This document shows, piece by piece, positions 45,555-46,749 of a stretch of DNA of 64,000 bases. Made by a program: the position numbers and the translations under genes. Within the stretch, counting starts at the first letter, position 1. Every line of letters begins with the position of its first letter. The DNA is from a bacterium (lineage in GTDB: Bacteria; Planctomycetota; SZUA-567): NCBI GenBank assembly GCA_003245715.1, contig QKCJ01000031.1:62001-126000 (forward strand), written 5' to 3'. The notes below the pieces were generated by a model. That model searched no databases. It was not told the DNA's origin and saw only the letters and a list, made by a program, of their open reading frames with translations.

Positions 45555-45778
45555 CTTACGCTATTCCTATCAACAGGTAATTATTTCGGCAACCCATTCT
45601 GCCGAGTTACAAAACAAAAAAAGCTTTCGCGCAGAACGCGAAAACTCCCGACGTCTTACGGATCTAATTTTCCGCATGACGAACGAGAGCTGACAGTTCA
45701 CAACTTTAAGCACCAGGTTTACCCGGTTCCGCAAATAACAGCGGCATGTGCTTGAAAGCTCCTTAACCAACTTGTGAG
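45555..45778 (-). promoter_or_regulatory. Structured 5' leader of the rplD operon (putative L4-type attenuator)
   Basis: Predicted transcript start is near 45778. From there the minus-strand RNA can fold as nested stems: UCACAA/UUGUGA (45772-45777 with 45698-45703) encloses AAGCAC/GUGCUU (45748-45753 with 45708-45713). The latter encloses two hairpins: CCGC/GCGG with an 8-nt loop (45729-45744) and CCGGG-UAAA-CCUGG (45713-45726). This is a three-way junction. A terminator-like hairpin (45616-45643) and another 6-bp hairpin (45586-45605) follow before the rplD ribosome site. An 81-codon open frame crossing this region looks spurious. Regulation by L4 is inferred from the E. coli S10 leader; no sequence similarity was checked. 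Confidence 0.6.
45616..45643 (-). terminator. Terminator-like hairpin in the rplD leader
   Basis: A 7-bp stem TTTCGCG/CGCGAAA (45625-45643) with a 5-nt loop is followed on the minus strand by GC and seven T. It lies 60-90 bases upstream of the rplD ATG and inside the predicted leader, so it could act as a conditional attenuator rather than end an upstream gene. Confidence 0.7.
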
Positions 45779-45784
45779 CGCTGA

Positions 45785-45812
45785 AGTATATGCAGAAAGG
45801 ACTAAACATCAA
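45785..45812 (-). promoter_or_regulatory. Sigma-70-type promoter of the rplD ribosomal operon
   Basis: On the minus strand TTGATG (45807-45812), a 16-bp spacer and TATACT (45785-45790). Both boxes are close to consensus. The start it predicts coincides with the 5' end of the outer leader stem, and it is the only good promoter I see between the peptide genes and rplD. Confidence 0.65.
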
Positions 45813-45956
45813 CACCTAATTTAATTTTTTTTCATTTTTTTATTCTAATCTGCAAATCACCCCCGTTTTTCTGATTAAAGTTGATGGTGTTATGCAAACA
45901 TCTAACAATTATTAACTTAATTAGAGGTCTTTTATTATATTATTATTATAACTTCT

Positions 45957-46126
45957 TTAATCACGATTTTTTTTATCTTTTCCGGTAAAGGCTTGCGTGC
46001 CATCTGGATTATATACAGGATAAATCGTCGCATTCAAGCTTTCATCGGGCTTTTCAGCAATCCCCGCCCCGCCGGAAACTTTTCAATTTCTTCGCTTACA
46101 ATCTTTTTTTTCTTTGCATCAGTCAT
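45957..46126 (-). pseudogene. Frameshifted double-glycine leader peptide gene
   Basis: The ATG at 46126 follows GGAGAG and reads MTDAKKKKIVSEEIEKF, then stops after 30 codons. One extra T in the TTT run at about 46076-46078 would continue as SGGAGIAEKPDESLNATIYP with a VYNPDGTQAF segment and an end KNRD at 45957. The restored peptide (about 56 residues) has the same layout as the intact peptide gene at 46310: a charged leader, a double-glycine site (hydrophobic -7 and -4, GG) and an IYPV motif. It is therefore called a frameshifted homologue; a sequencing error or programmed shift are alternatives. A TATAAT hexamer lies at 46148-46153. Confidence 0.55.
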
Positions 46127-46147
46127 TTTGCTCTCCATCAATAAAGC

Positions 46148-46153
46148 ATTATA
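46148..46153 (-). promoter_or_regulatory. Candidate -10 box for the frameshifted peptide gene
   Basis: A perfect TATAAT on the minus strand 22 bases before the ATG, compatible with a short leader carrying the GGAGAG ribosome site. No clear -35 box is seen. Confidence 0.35.
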
Positions 46154-46230
46154 ATGTCTCAAAATACACACCTATAATGATGTATTAAATTATCATTTGT
46201 TTCACAATACAGTCAATTTTAATAAGTTAC

Positions 46231-46270
46231 AAAAAAAGGCGCCAACCTTAATATCAAAGTTGGCGTCGCC
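46231..46270 (-). terminator. Rho-independent terminator after the intact peptide gene
   Basis: On the minus strand CGCCAAC pairs with GTTGGCG (plus flanking GGCG/CGCC with a bulge), followed by seven T. It is 40 bp past the peptide stop, which supports the small gene being a genuine transcription unit. Confidence 0.85.
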
Positions 46271-46309
46271 CCAGATGTTACGTTCTATTGCCTCCCGAGC
46301 AATATTGAT

Positions 46310-46495
46310 TCATAATAGTATACGAACGCGATCTCGATTAGCCTTTTCCGGCTGGATTTGCATTTCATCAAAAGACACTGGATAAATCCGGTTATCTGCG
46401 TAATTTTCTGTATTTTCAGTGTTTTGATAAAATTTTCCGCCTGAAATGTTATCGAGTTCTTCCTTGCCAATGTTTTCTTTTTGATCTATCATCAT
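46310..46495 (-). CDS. Small peptide with double-glycine leader (bacteriocin/RiPP-precursor-like)
   Basis: 61 residues, starting ATG-ATG directly after AAGGGG and followed by a strong terminator. Residues 1-20 form a leader-like stretch ending EELDNISGG, which fits the double-glycine consensus: E at -8, L at -7, I at -4, G-G at -2/-1. The remainder (41 residues) is polar, with Asn/Glu-rich NTENTENYAD, an IYPVSFDEMQIQ motif, and a basic end; it has no cysteine. The IYPV motif recurs in the frameshifted gene downstream. Such leaders are normally cut and exported by C39-peptidase ABC transporters; none is in this window. No modification enzyme is adjacent. The function of the product is unknown. 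Confidence 0.65.
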   Translation of the reverse strand: MMIDQKENIGKEELDNISGGKFYQNTENTENYADNRIYPVSFDEMQIQPEKANRDRVRILL

Positions 46496-46582: not shown

Positions 46583-46619
46583 AAAAAAAAATCGCCGACT
46601 TTTTTATGAAAGTCAGCGA
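46583..46619 (-). terminator. Rho-independent terminator after corA
   Basis: On the minus strand TCGCTGACTT pairs with AAGTCGGCGA (one G-T), 8-nt loop, then nine T. It separates corA from the small peptide genes. Confidence 0.9.
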
Positions 46620-46749
46620 TATAAGCACCTAAGTATATGTTTTAAAATTATTAATTTCACAGAATCATGAAAATTCATGCACTTTTATAGATCAAAAATT
46701 AAACATAAAAATTTCTTAACAAATCTTTTATCCACGCCTGTCCAAGGAA

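Follow-up and report, generated by a model that had tools for sequence, protein, structure and literature searches.

A putative double-glycine-leader peptide gene and its frame-broken sister copy in a Planctomycetota genome with an NHLM-type exporter

The window analyzed here, a stretch of 64,000 nucleotides from a Planctomycetota genome (contig C41), holds between corA and rplD two minus-strand micro-genes that a first-pass annotation had described as sharing a double-glycine (GG) leader and a core with an IYPV motif. This common layout was confirmed on re-reading, the second gene being frame-broken. The features of the locus, together with the exporter genes found on another contig of the same genome, are as follows.

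46591..46620, minus strand: terminator-like hairpin 3' of corA, between corA and the peptide gene
46310..46495, minus strand: intact GG-leader precursor peptide gene, 61 aa (start at 46495 or, in phase, at 46492)
46436..46495, minus strand: leader MMIDQKENIGKEELDNISGG, with anchors I-4, L-7, E-8 and I-12 ahead of the GG cleavage site
46313..46435, minus strand: core of 41 aa, cysteine-free and hydrophilic, with IYPV
46240..46265, minus strand: intrinsic terminator of the intact gene (stem-loop and T-run)
46189..46216, minus strand: promoter-like site TTGACT-16-GATAAT, sigma-70-like, 5' of the second copy (consensus match only)
45957..46126, minus strand: second copy, frame-broken, with the leader in one frame and the IYPV core in another
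G000:C31, ~33.9-40.2 kb: NHLM cassette (TIGR03796, TIGR03797 and HlyD-like TIGR03794)

The intact open reading frame translates as MMIDQKENIGKEELDNISGGKFYQNTENTENYADNRIYPVSFDEMQIQPEKANRDRVRILL, and both the ribosome site (AAGGGG, a few bases 5' of the ATGATG start) and the dedicated terminator that had been attributed to it are present. Its leader is 19 or 20 residues long, and the predicted mature peptide, KFYQNTENTENYADNRIYPVSFDEMQIQPEKANRDRVRILL, is very hydrophilic (GRAVY -1.15), with no cysteine and only three Ser/Thr residues. The second copy starts at 46126, preceded by GGAGAG, which resembles a ribosome site, and consists of the leader MTDAKKKKIVSEEIEKF, a frame shift and the core AGIAEKPDESLNATIYPVYNPDGTQAFTGKDKKNRD in the other frame, ending at 45957; it would be a paralogous precursor turned into a pseudogene by the frameshift, or else the product of an assembly error. 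Given the terminator after the first copy and the promoter-like site before the second, the two appear to be separate transcription units.

When aligned, the two copies are 30% identical and have GG, IYPV and KxNRD in common. The full-length pair score was matched or beaten by 92 of 20,000 shuffles and that of the leader alone by 164 of 20,000, compared with 2,610 of 20,000 for the core alone, which is not significant; the significance of the pair thus comes chiefly from the leader. A two-sequence profile matches both halves of the second copy, although it was built partly from those same halves.

We then considered whether IYPV marks a wider undescribed peptide family, as had been suggested. 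Searches of 99 relatives, 392 phylum genomes, a collection of genomes at species level, viral contigs and plasmids turned up nothing homologous to the core, so that the "family" amounts to two paralogues in one genome, and purifying selection on a core lacking homologues could not be shown. As a family signature, IYPV was rejected: the GG...IYPV DNA pattern has eight matches in the genome, including the two window genes, and among the others one lies inside a large hydrolase-like protein and no small GG-leader ORF turned up at the rest. Pfam gave no match for the peptides, Rfam returned nothing above the gathering score, and the NCBIfam scan yielded neither NHLP (TIGR03793), the leader here being 19-20 aa rather than NHase-like and long, nor the Nif11 leader (TIGR03798); the bacteriocin leader model TIGR01847 scored 12.6 bits, below its cut-off of 15.7. 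In 13 relatives, corA does not lie upstream of rplD and no peptide gene turned up there. At 45560-45830 of the window, rplD is apparently not preceded by rplC, likewise in the relatives looked at, and the S10-type ribosomal operon appears to begin with rplD and to have a leader of its own, along with a hairpin resembling a terminator (45649-45619).

A GG in so small an ORF could be coincidental, the product being a cytoplasmic small protein or the ORF spurious. By chance, a stretch of the window's size would indeed hold about one match to a loose GG pattern, homologues are absent, and codon-usage bias is uninformative. We relied on a more specific leader test, for which small GG ORFs were sought in NHLM-cassette neighborhoods of other genomes of the phylum and a fixed-register matrix of 12 positions was built from five NHLM-neighboring short leaders, with the window sequence left out. 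This matrix, whose members were chosen by a related GG pattern and which is thereby biased toward GG leaders generally, replaced a whole-leader HMMER profile that was too short to separate from background. The intact leader scored 16.2 bits, within the range of the leave-one-out members (12.5-20.9), and was the only window ORF to reach at least 8 bits; the second copy's leader, with an X at the frame break, scored 9.0 bits. A score of at least 16.2 bits occurred once in 600 simulated Markov windows and not at all in 144 kb of real background. C39 proteases recognize anchor positions -4, -7, -8 and -12 (PMC6363468), and these anchors are present in both copies, in agreement with that work; the intact leader has the features of a C39 substrate, namely, a GG/GA end, hydrophobic residues at -4, -7 and -12 and the frequent Glu at -8. 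A leader score above chance, a neighboring paralogue with the same anchors, a ribosome site and a terminator all argue against coincidence, which we regard as very unlikely. On these sequence features, 46310-46495 is a real GG-leader peptide gene.

The first-pass annotation had proposed looking for a C39-peptidase ABC transporter in the rest of the genome, and one was found. The 3.75-Mb, 63-contig assembly contains a single C39 match, located in a complete NHLM cassette made up of HlyD, C39-ABC and a second ABC protein. The NHLM models score 983.5, 766.2 and 286.9 bits in this cassette, all above the NCBIfam cut-offs. By eye, the 150-aa C39 domain of G000:C31:38504-38893 keeps QxxxxxC, NHFVVV and NDP, which supply the Gln/Cys, His and Asp motifs expected of it. 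Such an exporter is not a given here, since NHLM HlyD occurs in only 27 of the 392 phylum genomes (2 of 16 in the family). The cassette lies on C31 and the peptide pair on C41, so the gene is not cassette-adjacent, and the link between them stems from the leader match and co-occurrence in one genome rather than from gene neighborhood. A scan for small GG ORFs found no GG peptide beside the cassette of this genome. Two small ORFs on other contigs (L012:1480-1719 on C50 and L013:1498-1740 on C25) resemble Nif11 leaders below the TIGR03798 cut-off; they show no clear GG and lie away from the cassette, and could be further exporter substrates.

We propose, with a probability of roughly 0.7, that the intact gene encodes a precursor cut and exported by this NHLM cassette, its sister copy being disabled. 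The C39 domain would bind the leader and cut after GG, and the cassette would then export the 41-residue peptide outside the cell. Of the export hypothesis advanced at first pass, the leader and the transporter are well supported, gene anatomy, leader match and exporter presence being read from the sequence; from these we infer cleavage, export and the pairing with this exporter. Counting against this proposal are the distance of the gene from the exporter, the lack of a GG peptide beside that exporter, the homologue-free core, the uninformative codon bias and the sub-threshold TIGR01847 score, as well as the break in one of the two copies, since the peptide system might be decaying. The locus could even be a remnant of a former peptide locus that has lost its expression, as the broken copy and the distance from the exporter would suggest, but the first copy is intact with expression signals and the exporter genes are intact as well, making this improbable to a high degree.

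The core could also be altered before NHLM export by a distant enzyme, for example of the radical SAM/SPASM type. NHLM exporters often serve modified peptides, and precursors may sit far from the enzymes (PMC2887384). A heavily modified product nonetheless seems unlikely, slightly less so than coincidence or decay, because the core has no cysteine and only the few Ser/Thr residues mentioned above, and no modification enzyme was recognized among the genes around the exporter. The most likely product is a secreted hydrophilic peptide that is unmodified or lightly modified, and a cysteine-based RiPP is unlikely. We can only guess that it acts as a signal, a matrix or biofilm component or a competition factor; core polarity favors signaling or matrix over membrane lysis, and a polar core free of cysteine fits a peptide of either of these two kinds better than it fits a lytic bacteriocin or a thioether RiPP.

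Known systems offer partial parallels. Haft et al. (2010) linked NHLM cassettes with GG precursors, Victivallis being among their cases (PMC2887384). The NHLP/Nif11 (N11P) systems described there share with ours the exporter families TIGR03794/3796/3797 and a ELSDEELEAVAGG-like leader end; their leaders, however, span about 70-85 aa, while the window leader has no NHase or Nif11 domain and its core is not Cys/Ser/Thr-rich. A second parallel comes from cyanobacteria, where unclassified double-glycine precursors neighbor transport cassettes of three genes (Wang et al. 2011, PMC3140520); these GG precursors are likewise short, vary in their cores, fall outside NHLP/N11P and accompany the same cassette type, but belong to another phylum and, unlike the window precursor, are linked to the cassette. 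In Synechococcus elongatus, the small GG proteins EbfG1-4 were shown experimentally to be secreted by the C39 transporter PteB and have a biofilm role (PMC4997328); they too lack homologues, although their genes are linked and the peptides larger. Class II bacteriocin leaders (TIGR01847) are short with the same anchors, yet the window core is hydrophilic, unlike membrane-active bacteriocins, and the model score is below cut-off. The pair looks like a lineage-specific addition to a known kind of secreted GG peptide, with a new core.

NHLM neighborhoods of relatives hold long Nif11-like precursors as well as short-leader ones, the latter with leaders MSDDNKISDADLEGVAGG-, MSDENKISDADLEGVAGG-, MTNPENISDADLEGVAGG-, MNDDRKLDDMDMDNVAGG-, MNEENKPDNWDLDKVAGG-, MPKNRPINDEDLKKVSGA- and MTNDKKLNAKDLASVKGG-. 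Cysteine-free, polar short-leader GG peptides occur near the cassettes of L087, L129, L130, L131, L138 and L145, their cores being hydrophilic like the window core. In family f21 (L129, L130, L131 and L138), they lie just upstream of the cassette on the same strand, with one further protein intervening in L131 and L138; that of L131 resembles TIGR03896 below cut-off and carries a cyclic-nucleotide-binding domain (PF00027, over its own cut-off). Of the f21 peptides, those scanned matched nothing in Pfam and nothing above threshold in NCBIfam; the group is a candidate unmodelled precursor class. Other GG ORFs lie near or beside such cassettes. A small minus-strand ORF at L135:355 has a GG leader, then poly-Arg, then a Gly/Asp-rich repeat core (LESVVGGHGRRRRRRRRRRHGHGGDDGGG...). 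At L085:1054-2600 (minus strand; genome G015, same family), a large ORF that by eye resembles a radical-SAM maturase sits between two longer GG precursors whose cores are rich in Cys and Gly, an arrangement that looks like a RiPP cluster.

Taken together, these observations would tie an unannotated orphan peptide to one specific exporter. Tentatively, short-leader, cysteine-free, hydrophilic and unmodified NHLM-exported peptides might form a phylum-wide class that acts outside the cell in signaling or in the matrix and not as antibiotics; the window pair would then be a lineage-specific branch away from its exporter. NHLM cassettes of this phylum adjoin short-leader, cysteine-free GG peptides for which Pfam and NCBIfam have no models, so the products secreted by these systems may include unmodified hydrophilic peptides as well as RiPPs.
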